Origin: Cloacibacillus sp. An23
GTDB taxonomy: Bacteria; Synergistota; Synergistia; Synergistales; Synergistaceae
Reading direction: 5' to 3'
Assembly (NCBI RefSeq): GCF_002159945.1
Contig: NZ_NFJQ01000015.1
Coordinates: 1-48,554, forward strand
DNA: 48,554 bases
The notes beneath the pieces are model-generated. The model was not told where the DNA came from. It did no database searches and saw only the letters and a list, made by a program, of their open reading frames with translations. Below are positions 16,407 to 28,196 of the stretch, piece by piece. Each line of letters starts with the position of its first letter. Positions within the stretch are counted from its first letter, which is position 1. Made by a program: the position numbers and the translations under genes.

Positions 16407-16916
16407 TTAGTCTTTCGGTTTTACGTCGATTGCGAACTTCGGTCCCTTTACAAAATCTGCAATCGTATTGCGCAGCTCATACAACGACAAGATTGCAAAG
16501 GAGACAGGAATCGCCGAATATGTGTACCGATAAGGGATCCTAAGGGCCGGCGTCATGCGTGAGCCTGCGACATTCACGAAATCTATGCCTATGAGCATAA
16601 CGATCACCGACGCGGCGAGCATAAGAATCTGCGAAACAAATGTCAGAGTGCGGTTCGCGCTGTGCGGCATCATCTCCTTAAAAACTACGATGCTCACATG
16701 CTCGCGCTGTACAGCTATTATGGTCGTGCTGAGCAGGCAGAACCACACTAGAAGTATCTTAAGCAGCTCTTCGGACCATGTCAGCGAATCGTTGAGCACA
16801 TAGCGGCAGAATACGTGCGCCCAAGCGACGACCAGCATTACTAGCCCAATGGCGATTATCACCGCCAGCACTACATTGTAGACTGCTTTTATAAGCTTAT
16901 CGAGAGCAGCCAGCAT
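16407..16916 (-). CDS. TRAP transporter small permease (DctQ family)
   Basis: A 169-aa membrane protein with four predicted helices (near 12-34, 50-66, 87-107 and 132-150). RYVLNDSLTWSEELLKILLVW is typical of DctQ. It pairs with the large permease to form the Na+-coupled carrier of a tripartite transporter. It is the last gene of the operon, 17 bases after the DctP stop; GAAGGAAG precedes ATG 16916. Substrate not shown; see the divergent kinase and enolase-like genes. Confidence 0.9.
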   Translation of the reverse strand: MLAALDKLIKAVYNVVLAVIIAIGLVMLVVAWAHVFCRYVLNDSLTWSEELLKILLVWFCLLSTTIIAVQREHVSIVVFKEMMPHSANRTLTFVSQILMLAASVIVMLIGIDFVNVAGSRMTPALRIPYRYTYSAIPVSFAILSLYELRNTIADFVKGPKFAIDVKPKD

Positions 16917-16933: not shown

Positions 16934-17962
16934 CTAATTCATCCCCTTGAGAATATCTGCTTTAACCGCTTTGATGTCGGAAAGGAATTTATCGACGTAT
17001 TCAGCCCCAAGCTCTTTCTTTGCTCTTTCTATAACGACAGGCTGCGCCGCGTTCCGTATCTCTGCTAACGCCGACGGTTCGAGACTGTTGACTTCCATGC
17101 CCCTTTTCTTAAGCTCTGCAAGTATCACGTCCTCGCGGCCCGCGTTTACGAAGCGGCTGTAGTTCTGTCCAAGAATCGCACCGACGGCGAGAGCCTCCTG
17201 ATATTCGGGCGGCAGCTTTTCAAACCAGCGGAGATTGGCGACAAGCGGCATTCCGTCGTAAATGTGCCCGGTGAGCGAGACATATTTCTGTACTTCGTAC
17301 ATGTTGAGGTCCCACATATTGGAAATCGGGTTTTCCTGTCCGTCTACGATTTTCTGCTGCATCGAAAGATAGAGTTCGGAGAAGGGGACGGGCGTCGGGT
17401 TTGCGCCGAGGGCTTCAAAGCTCGCCATGTGCATCGGGTTCTGCATCGTTCTTATCTTAAGCCCTTTGAAATCGGCAAGCTTTGTTATAGGTTTCACGGA
17501 AGAGGTAACATGACGGAAGCCGTTTTCCATGTAGGCGAGCCCTTTCATGCCGCATTCTTCGAGCGAGGCGAGCAGATCCTGCCCGACTTTGCTGTCCATC
17601 ACCATCCACGCTTCATTGTAATTATTGAAAAGGAACGGAATATCGAGGACGAAGAAATTTTTCTGGAACGTGGTGACGGGCGCCAGAGACGCGGTCGCCA
17701 TTTCGAGGGAGCCAGTCTGCACCTGTGCGAGTGACTCTTCCTCGGCGCCGAGCTGGCTGTTCGGGAAGATGTTGATTACGAAATTGCCGTCGGTTTTGTC
17801 CTCGACGTACTGCTTCATTACAAGAAGGCCTATCGTCTGCGGATGCGTCATCGAGTTGCAGGCGGAGACGCGCGCCGTGATTTTTTCAGCGGCGAAGGCG
17901 CATACAGACGTCAACATGACGCAGGCAAGAGTTAAAAGTGCAGCTATCGCTTTTCTTCTCAT
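16934..17962 (-). CDS. TRAP transporter substrate-binding protein (DctP family)
   Basis: A 342-aa periplasmic solute receptor. A signal peptide ends near residue 24 (CAFA-AE). The mature part has the DctP features FPNSQLGAEEESLAQVQTG, KGLKIRTMQNP with the Arg that pairs with the substrate carboxylate, and VDGQENPISNM. Such receptors bind organic acids or amino acids. The gene lies between DctM (37 bases) and DctQ (17 bases). The conserved carboxylate-binding Arg suggests an acid substrate, whose identity is not evident. Confidence 0.93.
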   Translation of the reverse strand: MRRKAIAALLTLACVMLTSVCAFAAEKITARVSACNSMTHPQTIGLLVMKQYVEDKTDGNFVINIFPNSQLGAEEESLAQVQTGSLEMATASLAPVTTFQKNFFVLDIPFLFNNYNEAWMVMDSKVGQDLLASLEECGMKGLAYMENGFRHVTSSVKPITKLADFKGLKIRTMQNPMHMASFEALGANPTPVPFSELYLSMQQKIVDGQENPISNMWDLNMYEVQKYVSLTGHIYDGMPLVANLRWFEKLPPEYQEALAVGAILGQNYSRFVNAGREDVILAELKKRGMEVNSLEPSALAEIRNAAQPVVIERAKKELGAEYVDKFLSDIKAVKADILKGMN

Positions 17963-17999: not shown

Positions 18000-19274
18000 C
18001 TAGTAACCCGCCAGGCGAGGCAGGAAAAGCACCAGTTTCGGGCAGAAAGTGACGAGCAGAAGGACGCATATCGTGGCGGCGATAAATGGTATCGCTTCCT
18101 TGACAGTGTCCTCTATTCGCACCCCCGCCACAGGGCTTGTGACGAAAAGTGTTATTCCAAAGGGCGGCGTCGCGAGTCCTACGACCAGGTTGATGCAGAT
18201 GACGAGCCCTATATGAAGAGGGTCTATGCCGAGCTCCCACGCTATAGGCGCGATAAGCGGGGCGAGAATGACTATCGAGGCATAGTCGTCCATGAAACAA
18301 CCGACGATAAGGAGCAGGATGTTGACGCAGAGCAGGAAAAGCCACCACGGCATCGTCGAAAGCGGGCCGATGAGGCTGTCGAGCAGACGCTCGTTCGCGA
18401 TGGCCCAGGCCATAACGCTTCCTGCTCCAGCAAGCAGCAGGACGAGCCCGGTCGTCGAAGCCGCGTCAAGGAACATATCCGGGATGTCCTTGAGCTTGAC
18501 GGAGCGGTTGACGCAGAAGGCGAGGAATCCGCTGTAAAGCACGGCAACAGCCGATGCCTCGGTTATCGTGAATATACCGCTGAATATGCCTCCGAGAATG
18601 ATGACCGGCAGCAGCAGAGACGGCAACGCCTTCTTGGTCGCCGCTATTTTCTGTTCGGCCGTAGCCTTGCCGTGAGCTTTGTACCCGCGCTTCGTCGCTA
18701 TCCTGTTGGCAATTACGATCTGCACCCCTGCGATAAGCAGGGCCGGGACTATCGCAGCCATAAATAGTCCGGCAATGGACGTTTTGCCGACGGACATGCA
18801 GTAAAGGATCATCAGGACGCTCGGCGGCATTATCGGGCCGAGAAGTGAAGCCGACGACATGACACCGGCGGAAAACGCAGCGGAATAGCCCTCCTTCTTC
18901 ATCATAGGAATGAGAAAGACTCCGAGCGAAGCGGCGGCTGCGACCGCGAGGCCGACGATCGACCCCATAAGGAGGCTAGCGCCTATAGTGACCATCGCTA
19001 TCGCTCCGTTGAAACGCCCGAAGAAAGCATTTACGAAGTCGATGAGCGATTCAAGCAGCTTCCCCTTGAGCATGAGCTGTCCCGTAAGTACGAAGAACGG
19101 AACTGCCAGGAAGGAGAAGCTGTTCATTCCCTCATACATCTTCTGCGTGATGACGATGACAGGAAAACCGCTGACAAGAAGATATGCCAGCGAGCTTATA
19201 ATCAGGTTATAAGCTATAGGCAGCCCTATCACCATCAAAAACAGAAAACAAATGACCAGCGTCGCTAGTTCCAT
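18000..19274 (-). CDS. TRAP transporter large permease (DctM family)
   Basis: A 424-aa carrier subunit with about twelve hydrophobic segments. DctM hallmarks include IGLPIAYNLIISSLAYLL, FSFLAVPFFVLTGQLM, GVMSSASLLGPIMPPS, GLAVAAAASLGVFLIP and VGLATPPFGITLFV. It performs sodium-driven uptake of the ligand delivered by DctP. ATG 19274 has AAGGAG nine bases before it. Its position directly after the cyclodeaminase-like gene suggests that the transported compound is also that enzyme's substrate, or feeds the same pathway. Confidence 0.94.
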   Translation of the reverse strand: MELATLVICFLFLMVIGLPIAYNLIISSLAYLLVSGFPVIVITQKMYEGMNSFSFLAVPFFVLTGQLMLKGKLLESLIDFVNAFFGRFNGAIAMVTIGASLLMGSIVGLAVAAAASLGVFLIPMMKKEGYSAAFSAGVMSSASLLGPIMPPSVLMILYCMSVGKTSIAGLFMAAIVPALLIAGVQIVIANRIATKRGYKAHGKATAEQKIAATKKALPSLLLPVIILGGIFSGIFTITEASAVAVLYSGFLAFCVNRSVKLKDIPDMFLDAASTTGLVLLLAGAGSVMAWAIANERLLDSLIGPLSTMPWWLFLLCVNILLLIVGCFMDDYASIVILAPLIAPIAWELGIDPLHIGLVICINLVVGLATPPFGITLFVTSPVAGVRIEDTVKEAIPFIAATICVLLLVTFCPKLVLFLPRLAGY

Positions 19275-19307: not shown

Positions 19308-20429
19308 TTACTTTATATACGGCTCGTCCCACAGCAGGAGCTTCTGGCCTACGCCCTGTTTCAGCGCGCGCTGGTAGAGCTCGAAGCCGCATGCGACGTC
19401 GAATACCGCCATTCCGCAGGCGACGAAGATTATCGTCTCGTCGTCGCTCGTGCGTCCGGGCTTGTTGCCGAGTATGACGTTTCCGATGTCGGTGGAGTCC
19501 TCAAGCTTCGGAAGCTTGCCTTCGTCGATGAGCGTGTATATCGGGCCGCCGATGACTCCGGCGTAATATCCGGGGACGTCGCCGGAGGCGTAGGCTTCTT
19601 CGACGTAGGCTTCGTGAAGCTTGATGTTGTCGTAGACTATCTTGCTCTTGAGCCAGAGGTCGTCGTCGCCCTTAGCGGGGCCGGTGAGCATGACGAGAGC
19701 GCCTTTTTTAATCCACGAGCTCTCGATGTGGAGCGGCTTGAGGCGCGACGCGGCGACGGTGACGAGGTCGGCCTCCTTGAGCGCCTCCGGCAGTTCCGTC
19801 GTGGCGGAGGCTTCGAGGCCGAATTCGCTCTTGGCCCAGTCGGCGAAGGCCTGCGCCTTATCGAGGAATATGTCGTAGGTTATGATCTTCTTGAGGTTCG
19901 GGGCCTGGGTTACGATGTGGCGGAAGCAGGACTTGTTTATCGGGCCGCAGCCTATAACGGCGCAGACTTCGGAATCCTTGCGCGCGAGGTGGCGCGTGGC
20001 GACGGCGGGGATGGCTCCCGTGCGCGTCGCGCTGAGTATGTTCGCCGACATGTGGCAGAGGGGCGCGCCAGTGTCCTTATCGTTGATGAGGACGGTCAGT
20101 ATCGAGCGCGGGAGCCCCTTCGCGGTGTTCGCGGCGTTCGAGCCGTACCACTTGTTGCCGCAGACATCGAAGCGGCCGCCGAGATAGGCCGGCATTGCGA
20201 AGAAGCGGCGGTCGGGGCCGGCGACCGGCATATTCGGGAAGGGAGATTCCTTCGGGAAGATTATCCCCATGCCGTGGCTGTTGTGGTTCGGCCCGCCCAT
20301 GAGGTAGTCGCCCTTGGCGAGGAGCCCGAAGACCTCTTCGCAGACGTCTACCCACGCCGGAGCGTCGGTGATACCGAGCTTGATGGTATCCGGCTCAGAA
20401 AGATAGATAAACTCAATCTTGTTGCTCAT
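19308..20429 (-). CDS. Ornithine cyclodeaminase / mu-crystallin family protein
   Basis: A 373-aa NAD(P)-binding enzyme of the OCD superfamily, first gene of the TRAP operon. It shows the N-terminal substrate part with RFFAMPAYLGGRFDVCGNKW and ANTAKGLPRS, the ATRTGAIPAVATRHLA turn, and the Rossmann motif AVIGCGPINKSC. It is longer than bacterial ornithine cyclodeaminases (about 330-350). NCBI uses the name tyramine oxidase subunit B for some relatives, and I recall that name without being able to test the match. Relatives catalyse ornithine deamination, imine reduction or amino-acid dehydrogenation. AAGGAGAG lies before ATG 20429. The reaction here is unknown. Confidence 0.8.
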   Translation of the reverse strand: MSNKIEFIYLSEPDTIKLGITDAPAWVDVCEEVFGLLAKGDYLMGGPNHNSHGMGIIFPKESPFPNMPVAGPDRRFFAMPAYLGGRFDVCGNKWYGSNAANTAKGLPRSILTVLINDKDTGAPLCHMSANILSATRTGAIPAVATRHLARKDSEVCAVIGCGPINKSCFRHIVTQAPNLKKIITYDIFLDKAQAFADWAKSEFGLEASATTELPEALKEADLVTVAASRLKPLHIESSWIKKGALVMLTGPAKGDDDLWLKSKIVYDNIKLHEAYVEEAYASGDVPGYYAGVIGGPIYTLIDEGKLPKLEDSTDIGNVILGNKPGRTSDDETIIFVACGMAVFDVACGFELYQRALKQGVGQKLLLWDEPYIK

Positions 20430-20610: not shown

Positions 20611-20661
20611 ATTTTCTATTAGCTTATTAGCCCGTTTTATAAAAATATTAACTTGTAAGTA

Positions 20662-20670
20662 TGGTACAAT
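20662..20670 (+). promoter_or_regulatory. Extended -10 promoter of the AraC-type regulator
   Basis: TGG followed by TACAAT (20665-20670) forms an extended -10, which can work with a poor -35. A start near 20677 excludes the in-frame ATG at 20661 and supports the GTG at 20736 as the true start. Confidence 0.6.
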
Positions 20671-20735
20671 ATGCTCAACGTGTAAGGGGTTGTGTGTTTA
20701 TTTTTAATTCTCCAGAAAAGGAGAGTGGATTTTCT

Positions 20736-21677
20736 GTGATAAATTACCGCCCCATACTTGTAGACAGCACGCTCCAGGAGCTCACGGAGCACGGCGATTT
20801 CGCCTTCCCGATGTCTATGGACGAGCAGCGCGTCTCCGACAGCTATGTCGCCTTCGTTCCGCACTGGCACTACGAGATACAAATCTCTGCGGTCGTAAAG
20901 GGCTCCGTGATTTTCAGGACGCCGGAAAATGAATTCCGGCTTGAAAAGGGCGAGGCCGTTTTCTTCAACAGCGGCTGCATACACGAGGCCGTCCCGACCG
21001 AGGACAAGGACGGCGTCTACACATGCGTCAATTTTCACCCTAAGGTCGTTTACGGCTACGCCGAAAGTCTGCTGCGCCAGGACTATGTCAATCCAGTCCT
21101 CTACTCCAACGAGCTGCAGGCGATAGTTTTCCGGGACGAGCCGTGGCATCTCGAGGTGCGTAAGCTCATGGATTCGCTCATAGCGGTCAACCGCGCGGAG
21201 CGCTTCGGCTACGAGCTTGAGATGTACTCCATCATACTGAAGATATGGCACCTCATCGTGCAGAACAACGAAAGCCTAATCTCGGCCTCCTCGCTCGTAT
21301 CCTTCGCGGACAAACAGAGGATAAGGTCGCTCACGCACTTCATACACAAGAACTATATGGAGCGCATATCCCTGACCGAGATAGCGGAGTCGGACCACAT
21401 CAGCAAAGGCGAATGCTGCCGCGTCTTCCAGCGCGTACTCGGCACAACGCCATTCGCATATCTGATAAACTACCGCATACACCAGGGCATGAAGATGCTG
21501 GCGACGACCGACCACAACATTTCGGAGATAGCGCAGAGCGTAGGCTTCGGCTCCGGCAGCTACTTCACGGAATGCTTCAAGAAGATGATGCACTGCTCGC
21601 CGATGCAGTACCGCAAGCATATTCGCAAGGAAGGCAAATCGGAGGATGCGCCGCGGCCCGAGGAAGACTATTCGTAA
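20736..21677 (+). CDS. AraC family transcriptional regulator with cupin sensor
   Basis: A 313-aa regulator. The N-terminal half is a cupin sensor (FVPHWHYEIQISAVVKGSV, then EFRLEKGEAVFFNSGCIHEA with the PHWHYE metal or ligand motif). The C-terminal 100 residues hold two helix-turn-helix units (ISLTEIAESDHISKGECCRV and NISEIAQSVGFGSGSYFTEC). The GTG start at 20736 has AAGGAGAG 10-12 bases before it; ATG 20661 is in frame but overlaps the promoter. It diverges from the OCD/TRAP operon and precedes the kinase and enolase-like genes, so it probably activates one or both sides when the substrate is present. Confidence 0.9.
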   Translation: MINYRPILVDSTLQELTEHGDFAFPMSMDEQRVSDSYVAFVPHWHYEIQISAVVKGSVIFRTPENEFRLEKGEAVFFNSGCIHEAVPTEDKDGVYTCVNFHPKVVYGYAESLLRQDYVNPVLYSNELQAIVFRDEPWHLEVRKLMDSLIAVNRAERFGYELEMYSIILKIWHLIVQNNESLISASSLVSFADKQRIRSLTHFIHKNYMERISLTEIAESDHISKGECCRVFQRVLGTTPFAYLINYRIHQGMKMLATTDHNISEIAQSVGFGSGSYFTECFKKMMHCSPMQYRKHIRKEGKSEDAPRPEEDYS

Positions 21678-21710: not shown

Positions 21711-21786
21711 CGTTGACTTTGTTAAATAAAGCTTTTTATACTGGATTCGCACTCTGGACATAATAAAGCTTCGTACAAAGCCAACG
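21711..21786. repeat. Inverted repeat around the kinase promoter and ribosome site
   Basis: CGTTGACTTTGT (21711-21722) and ACAAAGCCAACG (21775-21786) are inverted copies with 11 of 12 positions matching, 52 bases apart. The first arm contains the -35 TTGACT; the second ends at the ribosome site GGGAGG of the kinase gene. AATAAAGCTT also occurs twice directly (21725-21734, 21762-21771). The repeats suggest paired operator sites. Confidence 0.55.
21713..21742 (+). promoter_or_regulatory. Promoter of the kinase / enolase-like operon
   Basis: TTGACT (21713-21718) and TATACT (21737-21742) are 18 bases apart. A start near 21749 would give a leader of about 50 bases before the ATG at 21801. The gene pair can therefore be transcribed apart from the araC-type gene that ends 36 bases before the -35. 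Confidence 0.62.
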
Positions 21787-21800
21787 GGAGGTTTTTATAT

Positions 21801-23204
21801 ATGCAGTGGAAAATAAGGAACCGCGAGCAGCTTTTATCCCACGGAGACACGGAGTCAAGACGCATCGTCCTCGACATAGCCGACAGGACGCTCCAGAAGC
21901 TTGACGCTAAGGAGCGCATCAAGAGCATAATGAGCCTGGACGGCGATATTCTGCGCATCGGGACGAAGAGCTGGGACCTTTCCAAGAAAAAGAACGTCTA
22001 TCTGCTCGGCGCCGGCAAGGCATGCAACCACATGGCGATGGCGGTGGACGAGATACTCGGAGACAGGCTGACGCGCGGCATAGCGATCGTAAAAATATCG
22101 GAGCCGACGGACGTTTTCAATAAAACCGAAGTTTACGTCGGCGGGCATCCGCTCCCCAACGAAGAGGGCTACAGGGCCTGCAGGATAATACTCGACATCG
22201 TGGACAACTCCGGACCGGACGACCTGTTTATATGCGTCATCAGCGGAGGCAGCTCCGCGCTGATGAGCTGCCCGATAGACGGGATCTCGCTCGAAGACGA
22301 GATAAAGGTGACGGACGTGATGCTCAAGTCCGGGGCGAACATATACGAGATAAACGCGATACGCCGCCACATATCGCAGATGAACGGCGGCATGCTGGCG
22401 AAGCGTATAGAGGCGCGCGGCGCTGAGCTGATAGGTTTCGGCATCAGCGACGCCGTGGGCACGCCTCCGACAGGCGACATCGGCATCCCTTACGCAAATT
22501 ACAAGAGCACGCCGATGGGGCCGGACGCGACGACGCTCGACGACGCGCGGCGCGTGATACGCGATTACGACGTCGCGGACAGGCTGCCGAAGAACGTCGT
22601 GGACTACCTGATGAACGCGGGCCCCGAGTGCGAGACGCCGAAGGCCTTCCCGAACAACACGTACTACTTAATAAACACGCTGCCAGACTCATGCGCCTAC
22701 GCGAAAAAAATTGCGGAAGAGATGGGCGTTCCCGCCGTCATACTCACGTCGTTCCTCGAGGGCGAGAGCCGCGACGTAGGCACGATGCTCGCCTCAGTGG
22801 CGCGCGAGATACAGGCCTACGGCAACCCGGTCAAGGCTCCGTGCGTGCTGCTCGCCTCCGGCGAAGCGACGACGCAGATCCTCGACAACAGCACGATAAC
22901 GGGCCACGGCGGCCCGTCGCAGGAGGAGACGCTGAGCTTCGCGCTATCGGCCGCTAAGGCCAGGGGGATATGCCTGCTCTCGATAGATTCAGAGGGCACC
23001 GACGGCACGACCGGCGTCGCGGGCGGCATCACCGACTCGACCAGCTACAAGGCGGCTCTTGAAAAGGGAATCGACGTACACGCAGCGCTGCGCGGACACG
23101 CGAGCTTCGAGGCGCTCGACGCGATAGGAGACGCGGTCTTCACAGGAAACACTGGAACCAACCTCTGCGACTTCAACGTAATGTACGTTCCGAAAATAGA
23201 TTAG
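21801..23204 (+). CDS. DUF4147/MOFRL kinase, divergent glycerate 2-kinase family member
   Basis: A 467-aa kinase of the type-2 glycerate kinase family. The N-terminal DUF4147 domain shows LLGAGKA (68-74), GGHPLPNEEG (114-123), ISGGSSAL (147-154) and NAIRRHISQMNGGMLA (185-200). The C-terminal MOFRL part shows ASGEATTQ, GHGGPSQEE (368-376) and DSEGTDGTTGVAGG (396-409). From memory, family norms are SDVVGDD..IASGPT, KGGRLA and GRGGRNQE; here these read SDAVGTPPTGD plus YKSTPMGPD, NGGMLA and GHGGPSQEE. The substrate is therefore probably not plain glycerate. GGGAGG precedes the ATG. The enolase-like gene follows after 12 bases, so the two act together. Confidence 0.84.
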   Translation: MQWKIRNREQLLSHGDTESRRIVLDIADRTLQKLDAKERIKSIMSLDGDILRIGTKSWDLSKKKNVYLLGAGKACNHMAMAVDEILGDRLTRGIAIVKISEPTDVFNKTEVYVGGHPLPNEEGYRACRIILDIVDNSGPDDLFICVISGGSSALMSCPIDGISLEDEIKVTDVMLKSGANIYEINAIRRHISQMNGGMLAKRIEARGAELIGFGISDAVGTPPTGDIGIPYANYKSTPMGPDATTLDDARRVIRDYDVADRLPKNVVDYLMNAGPECETPKAFPNNTYYLINTLPDSCAYAKKIAEEMGVPAVILTSFLEGESRDVGTMLASVAREIQAYGNPVKAPCVLLASGEATTQILDNSTITGHGGPSQEETLSFALSAAKARGICLLSIDSEGTDGTTGVAGGITDSTSYKAALEKGIDVHAALRGHASFEALDAIGDAVFTGNTGTNLCDFNVMYVPKID

Positions 23205-23216
23205 GAGGACGCGAAA

Positions 23217-24488
23217 ATGTCAAAGATAACGGAAGTCAAGGCAAGACAGCTAATCGACTGCAAATGCCGCCCGATGGTGGAGGTAGACGTAATAACCGAA
23301 AAAGGCTCGCTCGGACGCGGAAGCGCGCCGACCGGAAGTTCCGTCGGAATGTACGAGTCGTTCGTGCTGCGCGACAACGACCCCAAAGAATACAACGGCA
23401 TGAGCGTCCACAAGGCCGTCGAAAACGTGAACAAGATAATAGCCCCGGCGCTCATAGGCAAAGAAGTTAGCGGGCAGGAAGAAATAGACAAAATAATGAT
23501 AGAGCTCGACGGCACGCCGGACAAACATAATCTCGGCGGAAACGCGATATACAGCGCATCGATAGCGGCTTTCCGCGCCGCCGCAGGAGACGCCGGCAAA
23601 ACGCTCTACGACTATATAGCGGGCGAGCCGGTCAAAGACGTGCCGATACCGTCATTCAACGTCATCAACGGCGGGAAATATCCCGGACTGACGCAGGCCT
23701 TCAACGAATTCATCGTGATGCCCTACAAGGCCGATTCCATATACGAAGCCGTCGAGATCGCCGTCAAGGTGTTCCAGAAGCTCGGCCCCGTCATCAAGAA
23801 CTATACGAAAAAAGAGCCGGGCGTCGGCGGATCATACGGCTGGATCGCGCCGTCGGAGGACCCGGAGGTGCTGTTATCGCTCATGCAGGAGGCGATAGAC
23901 GCGTGCGGCTACACCGGCAAATGCGCTTTTGCGCTCGACTGCGCCTCCAGCGAGATGTACGACGCCGAGACTAAGACGTACTACCTTAACGGCAAGCGCC
24001 TTTCCTCCGACGAGCTCATAGGCTACGTCAAAGGGCTTACGGAAAGATGGAATTTCGTCTTCATCGAGGACATGCTCGACGAAAACGACTGGGATGGCTA
24101 CGAAAAGGCCCACAGAGAGATAACGAGGACTCTCATCATAGCAGACGACTTCACCGCGACAAGCAAGGAACGCATAGCGCGCGCCTGCTCGACGAACTCG
24201 ATAGACGGCTTCATCCTCAAGCCGAACCAGGTCGGCACGATAAGCGAAGCGCTCGACGCATACCGCTTTGCGCGCGAGCGCGGACTGCTCGCGATACCTT
24301 CCGGACGCTCGGGCGGCGTCATCGGCGACGTCGTGATGGACCTCGCGGTCGGCCTCGACGTGAGCTTTATCAAGAACGGCTGCCCGCGCTCCGGCGAGAG
24401 GATAGACAAACTGAATTTCCTGATGCGCGTCGCCGACCTGAACCCCGGCTGCGTGATGTCGGACATTTCTTCGCTCGTGCGCTTCTAG
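23217..24488 (+). CDS. Enolase-superfamily protein lacking canonical catalytic residues
   Basis: A 423-aa protein aligning end to end with enolase (432 aa in E. coli). Kept are the Ser-rich loop TGSSVG (39-44), Glu164 (NEF), the metal ligands Asp241 (LDCASSE), Glu284 (FIEDM) and Asp310 or 311, the catalytic Lys335 (KPNQVGT), phosphate-binding Arg364-Ser365 and Lys398. Changed are GG(S/E)HA to GGKYPG (152-157), GDEGG to GGSYG (204-208) and SHRSGE to SGRSGG (362-367). This removes the two His and the Glu that act on the leaving hydroxyl in true enolase. It probably handles another 2-phospho-acid made by the adjacent kinase. Automatic naming as phosphopyruvate hydratase would be misleading. GGAGG precedes the ATG. 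Confidence 0.85.
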   Translation: MSKITEVKARQLIDCKCRPMVEVDVITEKGSLGRGSAPTGSSVGMYESFVLRDNDPKEYNGMSVHKAVENVNKIIAPALIGKEVSGQEEIDKIMIELDGTPDKHNLGGNAIYSASIAAFRAAAGDAGKTLYDYIAGEPVKDVPIPSFNVINGGKYPGLTQAFNEFIVMPYKADSIYEAVEIAVKVFQKLGPVIKNYTKKEPGVGGSYGWIAPSEDPEVLLSLMQEAIDACGYTGKCAFALDCASSEMYDAETKTYYLNGKRLSSDELIGYVKGLTERWNFVFIEDMLDENDWDGYEKAHREITRTLIIADDFTATSKERIARACSTNSIDGFILKPNQVGTISEALDAYRFARERGLLAIPSGRSGGVIGDVVMDLAVGLDVSFIKNGCPRSGERIDKLNFLMRVADLNPGCVMSDISSLVRF

Positions 24489-24514
24489 GAGAAGCGCGCC
24501 TTCCACACGAAAAG

Positions 24515-24540
24515 GCCGGAGCGACGGCTCCGGCTTTTTT
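24515..24540 (+). terminator. Terminator of the kinase / enolase-like operon
   Basis: An eight-bp GC stem (24515-24522 with 24527-24534), four-base loop and six T residues (24535-24540), 27 bases after the stop at 24488. On the minus strand it is followed by CTTTT, so it may also stop the C69 peptidase transcript. Confidence 0.9.
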
Positions 24541-24704: not shown

Positions 24705-26078
24705 TCACCACAGCCTCATCCCGACGCGCCTGCAGTACTCCTCCAGAAATTCTTTTTTCGTGCCGGCCAGGCCGCCGCGGGATTTTATCATTGCGCTTAT
24801 TCTTTCGAAGTTTTTCAGCGCAAACGATGCGGCTTTGTTCGCGCACTCTTCCATGACTGAGCAGAGGACTTCTGCGGCTTCTTCGGAAAGGCCGCGCCTT
24901 GCCAGACGGGCCGCCTCGCGTTCGGCTCTCGCGGCCTGCGTTTCGATTTCCTCTTCGAGCGCGACTCCGCCCACGCGGATGAACGGCGCGTATCTGTCGT
25001 AGTCGGCCGATACCGCGGCGGCGAGCCTTTCAAAGAGCCACCAGAGCGAGCTTTCACTGAACTTTTCGCCGCTTTCGCTCATAAGCGGCGGCAGAGGGCC
25101 GGCGCAGTACGCCGGTATGTAGAGCGACAAGCATGGCAGCGAGCAGGCGAAGCGCATCGCAGGGCCCGCGCCTTCCGCCCAGCGGCATATCATGGAGGCG
25201 GCCGTCTGGCTCGACTCCGGCGTCATCGCGTGCATACAGACCGACGGGAAGACGCCGAAGGATACGCCGAAGCGCGGCTCTAGGAGCGTGCCCTCGAAGT
25301 GGTCGCGCAGGATGGATTTTACCGTAACGGCGTCGAAGGGGTCTTTTTCGGCTTCGAGCATGGAGCTCAGCCGCCGCAGCCTCGGCACGGCGCCGGTCTG
25401 TCTTTGCGCCGGGGCCGTGTAGGCCTTCGCGAAGTTAAACCGCTCGCCTTCCGCGAGCCAGCCTTTGTCCCGCGCATATTTTTCCAGCGCCTCGCTGCAT
25501 TCGTCCGGTTTCGCGATCGTATAGCAGTTGCTTATCGCGCACGGCTCTTCTATGCGTTTGGCGGCCCACATGCGCCCAGCCGTCTCGAGCAGCCAAATTT
25601 CCTCCCTGTCGGCTATAAGAAAAGAATTTTCGTAACGTTTGTCCTCGAGCACGCTCGCGTTGGCGTTCTGCCCGTATTCCTCAAGCAGCGCCGTTATGAC
25701 GCGCATCGCCTCGCGGGCAGTCGCTCCTCGCTCGAGGCCGAGGCGCAGCATATCCATGCCAAGCAGCGCGTTTCCGCGTCCCGTCTCGGCGGCTTTGCTG
25801 CCCTGCGCCTCGTTGCCTATCATCACGCCTTTTTCGTTGACGCCCATCTCGAAGCCCCACATCCAGTAGGGTCTGGAGCCGAGCACGCCGTATGTCTCGC
25901 CGGTCTGCGGGACGGATATGTAGGTACATTCGACTTTCTCGCCGGCTCCGTGCTTCGCGCCGGGCGACCATGTCAGCGCCTGCGCCTCGCCGAGCGGCCT
26001 GTCGCTGTTTTTCGCCAGAAGATTGCTCCCGCCCAGGCATCTCCCCGCCGGAAGCGCGAATGTGTCGCATGAAAGCAT
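24705..26078 (-). CDS. Secernin-like C69 family peptidase
   Basis: A 457-aa N-terminal-nucleophile hydrolase. The start MLSCDTF places Cys4 as the likely nucleophile after trimming, and AKNSDRPLGEAQ (22-33), KVECTYISVPQ, SRPYWMWGFEMGVNEKGV, LLGMDMLRLGLERG and LLETAGRMWAAKRI match the secernin branch of family C69. Relatives are dipeptidases. A cytoplasmic location is likely, as there is no signal sequence. The C-terminal 120 residues are charged and helical. It would support peptide use in an amino-acid fermenter. A -10 lies at 26132-26137. Confidence 0.88.
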   Translation of the reverse strand: MLSCDTFALPAGRCLGGSNLLAKNSDRPLGEAQALTWSPGAKHGAGEKVECTYISVPQTGETYGVLGSRPYWMWGFEMGVNEKGVMIGNEAQGSKAAETGRGNALLGMDMLRLGLERGATAREAMRVITALLEEYGQNANASVLEDKRYENSFLIADREEIWLLETAGRMWAAKRIEEPCAISNCYTIAKPDECSEALEKYARDKGWLAEGERFNFAKAYTAPAQRQTGAVPRLRRLSSMLEAEKDPFDAVTVKSILRDHFEGTLLEPRFGVSFGVFPSVCMHAMTPESSQTAASMICRWAEGAGPAMRFACSLPCLSLYIPAYCAGPLPPLMSESGEKFSESSLWWLFERLAAAVSADYDRYAPFIRVGGVALEEEIETQAARAEREAARLARRGLSEEAAEVLCSVMEECANKAASFALKNFERISAMIKSRGGLAGTKKEFLEEYCRRVGMRLW

Positions 26079-26485: not shown

Positions 26486-27853
26486 CTACTTTCCGAAAAC
26501 TTCCCTCGCGGCCTTGCGCGAGATTTCGATTCCGAGTTTGATGTCCTCGAGCGGGACGTTGAGCGCCGGGCGGAAGCGGACGGTGTTGCTGCCGCAGCCG
26601 AGGATGAGCATGTGGTTGGCCTGGCAGGCTTTGAGGAACTTGTTGCGCAGCTCTTCAGAGCATATGTCGTAGGCGCACATGAGTCCTTTGCCGCGGACGT
26701 TGCGGATATACTTCGGGAACTCTGCCTCGAGCTCCTTGAGTCCGTTATAGAGCGCCGGGCCGGCGACGTTCGCGACGTAGTCGAGAATTTTGTCGTCGCG
26801 GTAGATTTCAAGGTATCTCTGCGCGCGCACCATATCTACCACGGTTCCGCCCCACGTCGAGTTGAGGCGGCTCGAGACCTTGAAGCAGTTGTTCTCCACT
26901 TCGTCGATGCGCGGTCCGGCGATGACGCCGCATATCTGCGCCTTCTTGCCGAAGGAGAAGAGGTCCGGCTTGACCGGAGCGTGGTGCTCCCACGCCCACA
27001 TCTTGCCGGTGATGCCCATGCCGCACTGGACTTCGTCGAAGATGAGCAGCATTTCGTTCTCGTCGCATATCTGGCGGAGCTGCTTGAAGAACTCCGTGCG
27101 GAAATGGTTGTCGCCGCCCTCGCCCTGTATGGTCTCGATGATGACGGCGGCTATTCCGTCGGGATCGTTCATCAGAACGTGTTTGATCTGCTTGATGGCC
27201 TGCGCCTCGAGCCACTCGACTTCGCCGAGATGCTCTTCGAGCGGGAAGGTGATCTTCGGGTTGATGATGCGCGGCCACTCGGTGAATTTCGCGTAGCGCT
27301 GGTGCTTGTTCGGGTCGTTGGTGTTCGTCACGGAGAGAGTGTATCCGCTGCGCCCGTGGAACGCCTCGTTGAAGTGCATTATCTTCGTGCCTTTGCGCCC
27401 GTCGTAGGCTTCGCCAGGGGTTATCTTGCCCTTCTGAAGAAGTTTCTGAGTCTTCCAGTCCATCGCAACTTTGAAGGTGTTTTCGACGGCGAGCGTCCCG
27501 TAGTCTATCAGGAACAGGTGCTCGTAGCCTTCGGGCACGGCTACCTCGCCGAAGGTCTTGACGAATTCGGCCATCTCCTGAGTGTAGATGTCGGAGTTGG
27601 CGACTTTGTTGATAGCTGCGCGGAATATCTTTTCCTTGAACTCTTCGTTGTCGAGCTTCGGGTGGTTCATCCCGAAGGGGGCCGACGCGAAGAACGTATA
27701 GAAGTCGAGCCAGTCCGCCCCGCTGACGGAATCTATGACGTGACTGCCCTTTGATTTCTCCATGTCGATTACGATGTCAAAACCGTCGCGGAGCAGCAGC
27801 TTTTCTATCGTCGAGAATACGTCCTTTGGCGCTACGGAACAATTCGATGCCAT
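26486..27853 (-). CDS. lat: L-lysine 6-aminotransferase
   Basis: A 455-aa class III PLP aminotransferase that moves the epsilon amino group of lysine to 2-oxoglutarate, giving 2-aminoadipate semialdehyde and glutamate. Family motifs are FYTFFASAPFGMNHPK, NEAFHGRSGYTLSVTNT, IIETIQGEGGDNHF, LIFDEVQCGMG, the PLP lysine in FSFGKKAQICG and LNSTWGGT. The usual GGALAVENALK is DYGTLAVENTFK here. ATG 27853 is chosen because GGGAGG lies eight bases before it; ATG 27859 would leave only two. It starts lysine breakdown or cyclic-imine formation. It is monocistronic, with a promoter at 27932-27960. Confidence 0.9.
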   Translation of the reverse strand: MASNCSVAPKDVFSTIEKLLLRDGFDIVIDMEKSKGSHVIDSVSGADWLDFYTFFASAPFGMNHPKLDNEEFKEKIFRAAINKVANSDIYTQEMAEFVKTFGEVAVPEGYEHLFLIDYGTLAVENTFKVAMDWKTQKLLQKGKITPGEAYDGRKGTKIMHFNEAFHGRSGYTLSVTNTNDPNKHQRYAKFTEWPRIINPKITFPLEEHLGEVEWLEAQAIKQIKHVLMNDPDGIAAVIIETIQGEGGDNHFRTEFFKQLRQICDENEMLLIFDEVQCGMGITGKMWAWEHHAPVKPDLFSFGKKAQICGVIAGPRIDEVENNCFKVSSRLNSTWGGTVVDMVRAQRYLEIYRDDKILDYVANVAGPALYNGLKELEAEFPKYIRNVRGKGLMCAYDICSEELRNKFLKACQANHMLILGCGSNTVRFRPALNVPLEDIKLGIEISRKAAREVFGK

Positions 27854-28196
27854 TTGCATAACCTCCCAATGTTTAGTTAGACTGTTTAGACAATGCTGGG
27901 AATAGTTCGTTCAAAACTCCACTGCACTTTTAGTCTACATTCAAAATACAATAAAATCAAGGGTTAATTTCCAGACTTCTACTATTATTTTTTGATAAAA
28001 TATTATATTTTTCTTTATAGAATAATATTTATTTTATAAATTTAATTTTACTGCCCGCCTCTTGATGCGCGGCGGAGCGCTGTCGTATCCGCTGTGCGGA
28101 AAGCCGCCGTTCGCAAGCTTTCGTCTTATGGAGCGTTTTTCGCGGCGAGGGTAAAAGTAACAGCGGCCCCTTACAGGGCCGCTGTGTCGTTTTTTC
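27854..28196. other. AT-rich region upstream of the lysine aminotransferase gene
   Basis: A 343-base non-coding stretch. It holds the lat promoter, an AAATATTAT/ATAATATTT inverted pair (27998-28006, 28022-28030) inside a very AT-rich block (27960-28050), and the terminator at 28160-28185. No gene is supported. Confidence 0.55.
27932..27960 (-). promoter_or_regulatory. Promoter of the lysine aminotransferase gene
   Basis: On the minus strand TTGATT (27960-27955) and TAGACT (27937-27932) are 17 bases apart. The leader to ATG 27853 would be about 70 bases and contains repeated TTAGAC/TTTAGAC motifs near 27874-27891. Confidence 0.58.

Follow-up and report, generated by a model that had tools for sequence, protein, structure and literature searches.

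A kinase-paired enolase relative without the general acid of enolase: a candidate phospho-acid lyase in Cloacibacillus sp. An23 and other bacteria

Enolase is generally seen as a one-reaction enzyme, and the question raised by the locus described here is what should be expected of an enolase-like protein in which the residues for binding metal and phosphate and for abstracting a proton are in place, while the general acid is gone. The protein is encoded in a stretch of 48,554 nucleotides from Cloacibacillus sp. An23 (contig NZ_NFJQ01000015.1), the whole of which is referred to below as the window. The features that matter for the argument are as follows.

16407-16916, minus strand: TRAP transporter small permease (DctQ-like; open reading frame and synteny)
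16934-17962, minus strand: TRAP transporter solute-binding protein (DctP; TIGR00787)
18000-19274, minus strand: TRAP transporter large permease (DctM; TIGR00786; kept in the cluster)
19308-20429, minus strand: ornithine cyclodeaminase/mu-crystallin (OCD) family protein, divergent (Pfam; NCBIfam NF004848)
20661-21677, plus strand: AraC-family regulator with a cupin-type sensor domain (Pfam; same position in loci L034-L037)
21713-21742, plus strand: promoter-like site 5' of the kinase gene, 10/12 matches (consensus scan only)
21801-23204, plus strand: DUF4147-MOFRL kinase of the class II glycerate-kinase fold, carrying an insertion specific to the family (Pfam PF13660, PF05161)
23217-24488, plus strand: enolase-like protein, 423 residues, ATG start (open reading frame, Pfam and alignment)
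24509-24540, plus strand: terminator-like hairpin, 14 pairs and a T run, directly 3' of the enolase-like gene (consensus scan only)

The enolase-like gene starts 12 bp past the stop codon of the kinase gene, with an AGGAGG site within the gap, and the AraC-type regulator gene lies upstream of the kinase gene on the same strand. Beyond the 3' end of the enolase-like gene, on the opposite strand, are a peptidase C69 family gene (24705-26078) and an L-lysine 6-transaminase gene (26486-27859); a similar aminotransferase occurs near the family genes of L034 and L037, which is possibly just local synteny.

The active site across the family

That the protein aligns with enolase over its full length, as a preliminary description of this DNA had proposed, is borne out both by Pfam, where Enolase_N and Enolase_C are complete across the 423 residues, and by structure comparison: an AlphaFold2 model (27 sequences as input, mean pLDDT 94.3) has solved enolases as its nearest structures in Foldseek (TM 0.90-0.95, about 0.93; 33-38% identity). 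The NCBIfam model TIGR01060 'eno' accepts the protein with a score of 361.8 against a cut-off of 300, and thereby conceals it under the name phosphopyruvate hydratase, confirming the earlier suspicion that database names mask it.

Residues are numbered here as in E. coli enolase (MG1655 record, Met = 1), and unless otherwise stated the counts refer to 40 family members, all reading through without stops, set against 23 canonical enolases. In the window protein GGEHADN has become GGKYPGL, GDEGG has become GGSYG and SHRSGE has become SGRSGG, and these three changes, already noted in the preliminary description, are real and no errors of a single sequence, the key positions in them being altered across the family. 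Nearly all the residues that it listed as retained are constant: the metal ligands D246, E290 and D317, the base K342, the second lysine K393 and the phosphate-binding R371 are kept in 40/40, as is a second active-site glutamate, E168, which it had not mentioned; the position of S372 is looser (Ser in 31, Ala in 7, Gly in 2). By contrast with the canonical controls, which retain S39, H159, E209, H370 and E374 in 23/23, no family member has any of these five. The position of the general acid E209 is occupied by Ser in 39 and Tyr in 1, that of H159 by Tyr in 25, Asn in 14 and Gly in 1, and that of H370 by Gly in 38 and Gln in 2, while E374 is replaced by Gly, and S39 of the mobile loop by Thr, in every member. 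Altogether 27 alignment positions are near-fixed differences between the family and canonical enolases; in a 36-member count, position 158 is Lys or Arg in 27 and position 208 is Arg in 15. The return of the lost His and Glu residues at shifted positions, which had been raised as something that would undermine the earlier proposal, was looked for in the alignment of the 40 family and 23 canonical sequences, and none is restored.

The further claim that all three missing residues protonate or contact the hydroxyl on C3 was too strong for H159, which we take to sit in loop L2 and not simply to be a ligand of that hydroxyl. It does stand for the glutamate: in the yeast enzyme the general acid that assists the departure of hydroxide is Glu 211, and lysine 345 serves as base (PMC4450660); yeast Glu211 aligns with E. 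coli E209. Since the general acid is lost and the base kept, abstraction of the alpha-proton from a 2-phospho-carboxylate should still be possible in this active site, whereas the usual expulsion of a C3 hydroxyl would be left unsupported, although E168 might conceivably take over as acid. The small residues that replace E209, H370 and E374 (E209S, H370G, E374G), taken with the basic residues at 158 and 208, suggest a larger and more anionic substituent at C3.

In a tree the family forms a separate clade with support of 100/100 and a long stem of 2.18 changes per site. Canonical enolases branch outside it, as does another altered enolase of the An23 genome (encoded on contig C3 and described below), although the latter is a long branch whose position is unsure. 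Strong purifying selection acts on the enolase-like gene, dN/dS being 0.036 against congener L034 and 0.11 against L037. The family was traced to 40 sequences in Synergistota, Bacillota, Planctomycetota, one actinobacterium and rhizobial plasmids; a scan with one genome per species gave 31 loci, made up of 29 family members and two canonical-like Shapirobacteria sequences. Hosts include Candidatus Caccocola (Synergistaceae), Paenibacillus rhizosphaerae, Psychrobacillus lasiicapitis, Propionicicella superfundia, Cuneatibacter, gut Clostridia and Planctomycetota MAGs, while the plasmid carriers are Agrobacterium cucumeris, Rhizobium and Shinella. Prevalence in three groups was 9/397, 2/297 and 1/294 genomes, a rarity consistent with horizontal spread. 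At least two copies (L065 and L087) are broken, apparently by frameshift or stops; that of L087, on a Rhizobium jaguaris plasmid, was matched as two pieces and left unannotated, and intact copies exist elsewhere. One locus (L102:8487-11071, genome G113) carries two members of the family in tandem, which share 49% and 53% identity with the window protein; both have Gln at the H370 position and are adjoined by kinase and TctA/TctC-type genes.

The partner kinase and the surrounding genes

A MOFRL kinase gene is present in 42 of 43 distinct family loci, usually no more than 100 bp away, and the sole exception ends at a contig edge; in L042-L044, L049, L069 and G641 kinase and enolase are fused in a single open reading frame of about 900 residues. 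The partner shares with class II glycerate kinase (PDB 2b8n, 1x3l) its two domains and most of the conserved motifs, but differs where that enzyme has its ASGP motif. Ordinary MOFRL kinases of related genomes read SDxxGDxxxxIASGP at this point, and the one in the An23 genome (C4:221124) reads SDIIGDPLDMIASGPAYPD, whereas the family partners carry an insertion, ISDAVGTPPTGDIGIPYANYKSTPMGPD in the window copy, and the ASGP motif is lost there. The partner also falls below both NCBIfam cut-offs for glycerate 2-kinase (184/550 and 149/670 bits), scores whose meaning is limited by the few lineages that these models span. That it phosphorylates its substrate would follow from homology; that kinase and enolase-like protein have changed together argues that their shared substrate is not D-glycerate.

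The neighbouring genes point to several compound classes, namely dicarboxylates, amino acids and hydroxy acids. Across the 43 family loci, an OCD-family gene is found in 33, an RpiR regulator in 13, TRAP genes in about 13, a D-2-hydroxyacid dehydrogenase in 10, a LarA-type racemase in 6, a GDH-type dehydrogenase in 5 and hydantoinase/oxoprolinase genes in 4-6. The LarA homologues are nearest to the nickel-pincer 2-hydroxyacid racemases for malate and lactate, yet lie below all equivalog cut-offs, the four tested all being under those for malate/lactate racemase. The OCD protein of the window shares its domain over most of its length with the nearest solved structure, 4m54 (a putative ornithine cyclodeaminase), but belongs to a subfamily of its own, NF004848, and lies far under the SbnB, BhcD and EutC cut-offs. 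Through that subfamily it has acquired the name 'tyramine oxidase subunit B', for which no paper using it was found; given the OCD-family domain, the name may mislead. For the TRAP binding protein, the nearest PDB entries give no clear ligand.

Whether a canonical enolase exists elsewhere in the same genome, a check proposed in the preliminary description, turns out to depend on the host. One scoring above 400 bits stands alongside the family member in 16 of the 19 host genomes tested, and the relative G026 also carries one. The An23 genome itself (99% complete) has only two Enolase_C matches, both altered, and no canonical enolase, although it encodes PGK and a PPDK-type protein. It thus provides the first half of a combination (a genome with no other enolase, together with normal 2-phosphoglycerate dehydratase activity) that had been held to count against a new activity. 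A missing canonical enolase nevertheless need not call for a substitute, since among 47 near-complete genomes of Synergistales that were searched, 9 lack any Enolase_C match above threshold. A role for the enolase-like protein as sole enolase in place of eno was considered, and is weakened by the canonical copies in those 16 genomes. No match to iPGM_N was found in any relative searched.

The family thus resembles enolase (phosphopyruvate hydratase, EC 4.2.1.11, TIGR01060) in fold, length, metal ligands, K342, K393, R371 and E168, and differs from it in having none of E209, H159, H370 and E374, in forming its own clade, in being paired with a kinase and in occurring beside canonical eno in most of its hosts.

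Candidate functions

Fixed loss of the acid, purifying selection, the separate clade, the pairing and fusion with a MOFRL kinase and the canonical enolase in 16/19 hosts together lend in silico support to the idea, put forward in the preliminary description, of a specialised enolase relative fit to bind a 2-phospho-acid and remove its alpha-proton, but not to release a C3 hydroxyl. The reading that we favour, as somewhat the more probable outcome, is a kinase-lyase couple that breaks down a 2-hydroxy acid distinct from glycerate, or its 2-amino counterpart. The compound would be taken up by TRAP, tripartite tricarboxylate or amino-acid ABC transporters and converted by the OCD-family protein toward a 2-hydroxy acid of one hand, a step to which a D-2-hydroxyacid dehydrogenase, a glutamate-dehydrogenase-type enzyme or a LarA-type racemase may contribute in some clusters. 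The MOFRL kinase, to judge from its fold and its partner, would then place a phosphate on the 2-hydroxyl. In the last step, as the retained residues suggest, K342 would take the C2 proton, with the aci-carboxylate bound by the metals and the phosphate by R371, and the C3 substituent would be expelled without protonation by Glu209, leaving either PEP or a substituted form of it.

Candidates for the C3 leaving group are an amine, a sulfonate and anionic groups of larger size. A sulfonate route (from 3-sulfolactate, in the reverse of phosphosulfolactate synthase) is a chemically attractive candidate in that the leaving group needs no acid; no sulfite-handling genes were recognised in the clusters when these were read without dedicated profiles. 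Amine release, for instance from isoserine-type acids, is another candidate, in keeping with the OCD, CN-hydrolase and M20 genes nearby. Amino acids of mimosoid legumes, suggested as substrates by the rhizobial hosts, were set aside because of sampling bias, and PbfF was dropped as a precedent for an OCD-type racemase, as it descends from D-2-hydroxyacid dehydrogenases and not from the OCD family. No paper on the pair of genes was found in the open-access literature.

It is also conceivable, though unlikely, that proton abstraction leads not to elimination but to different chemistry, for example one that epimerises or isomerises the phosphorylated acid. Members of other subgroups of the enolase superfamily do racemise, and an active site that has lost its acid while keeping the base and K393 would allow reprotonation; but E168 is kept, LarA-type racemases already handle stereochemistry in several clusters, and fusion to a kinase suits a pair that phosphorylates and then eliminates at least equally well. 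Somewhat less probable still is that the protein goes on dehydrating 2-phosphoglycerate in a rearranged site, where E168 or a Tyr serves as acid, and that it supports a glycerate pathway and, in An23, general metabolism as well. The glycerate 2-kinase fold of the partner, the invariant E168 and a genome that lacks canonical eno but encodes PGK and a PPDK-type protein would all suit such an enzyme, and yet the usual general acid is gone from all 40 members, most hosts tested have a canonical enolase as well, the partner kinase has diverged in step from the ordinary glycerate kinase that An23 also keeps, and several near-complete related genomes do without any enolase. As for a pseudoenzyme, with no catalysis of its own and serving as scaffold or regulator of the kinase, the near-constant pairing and the fusions would fit, but such a partner would not need the metal ligands, base lysine and phosphate arginine that are invariant in 40/40, and we consider it very improbable.

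Other altered enolases and what they may mean

The kinase-lyase couple may have parallels outside the window family. The second altered enolase of An23 is part of an 867-residue MOFRL kinase-enolase fusion (L003:8252-10855; region C3:84251, about 84.2-86.9 kb), the enolase part of which reads SLRSGE and PEDGG; it adjoins a group 22 nickel-pincer (LarA-type) isomerase (NF052515, above cut-off), a GntR regulator and a tripartite tricarboxylate (TctABC-type) transporter. In G037, another member of the Synergistales, a module (L129:873-7911) contains in a row a LarA-like protein, an enolase with H159L and H370E that retains GDEGG, a MOFRL kinase and a D-2-hydroxyacid dehydrogenase, and its last open reading frame resembles, by eye only, a TRAP binding protein. 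These cases suggest that enolase paralogues have repeatedly been recruited to kinase-coupled catabolism of acids, and the window family, the An23 fusion and the G037 module with LarA and H370E, whose residues facing the substrate C3 differ, may have separate origins. Extra enolase copies with SARSGE (H370A), retaining GGAHA and DEGG, were also seen in two Planctomycetota genomes (L131:179-1504 and L132:789-2102).

We would put at about even the chances that the enolase subgroup of the superfamily has a second catalytic function, that of a phospho-acid lyase which releases something other than water and is served by a dedicated MOFRL kinase, in a design that may recur. If so, names assigned automatically (phosphopyruvate hydratase, glycerate kinase, tyramine oxidase subunit B) would be concealing a whole pathway, and false enolase calls could enter genome-based metabolic models. 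Bacteria of the gut, the termite gut, soil and plants would have a hidden route of degradation, and a widespread catabolic branch that dispenses with the leaving-group acid would show how the enolase active site can be re-aimed.
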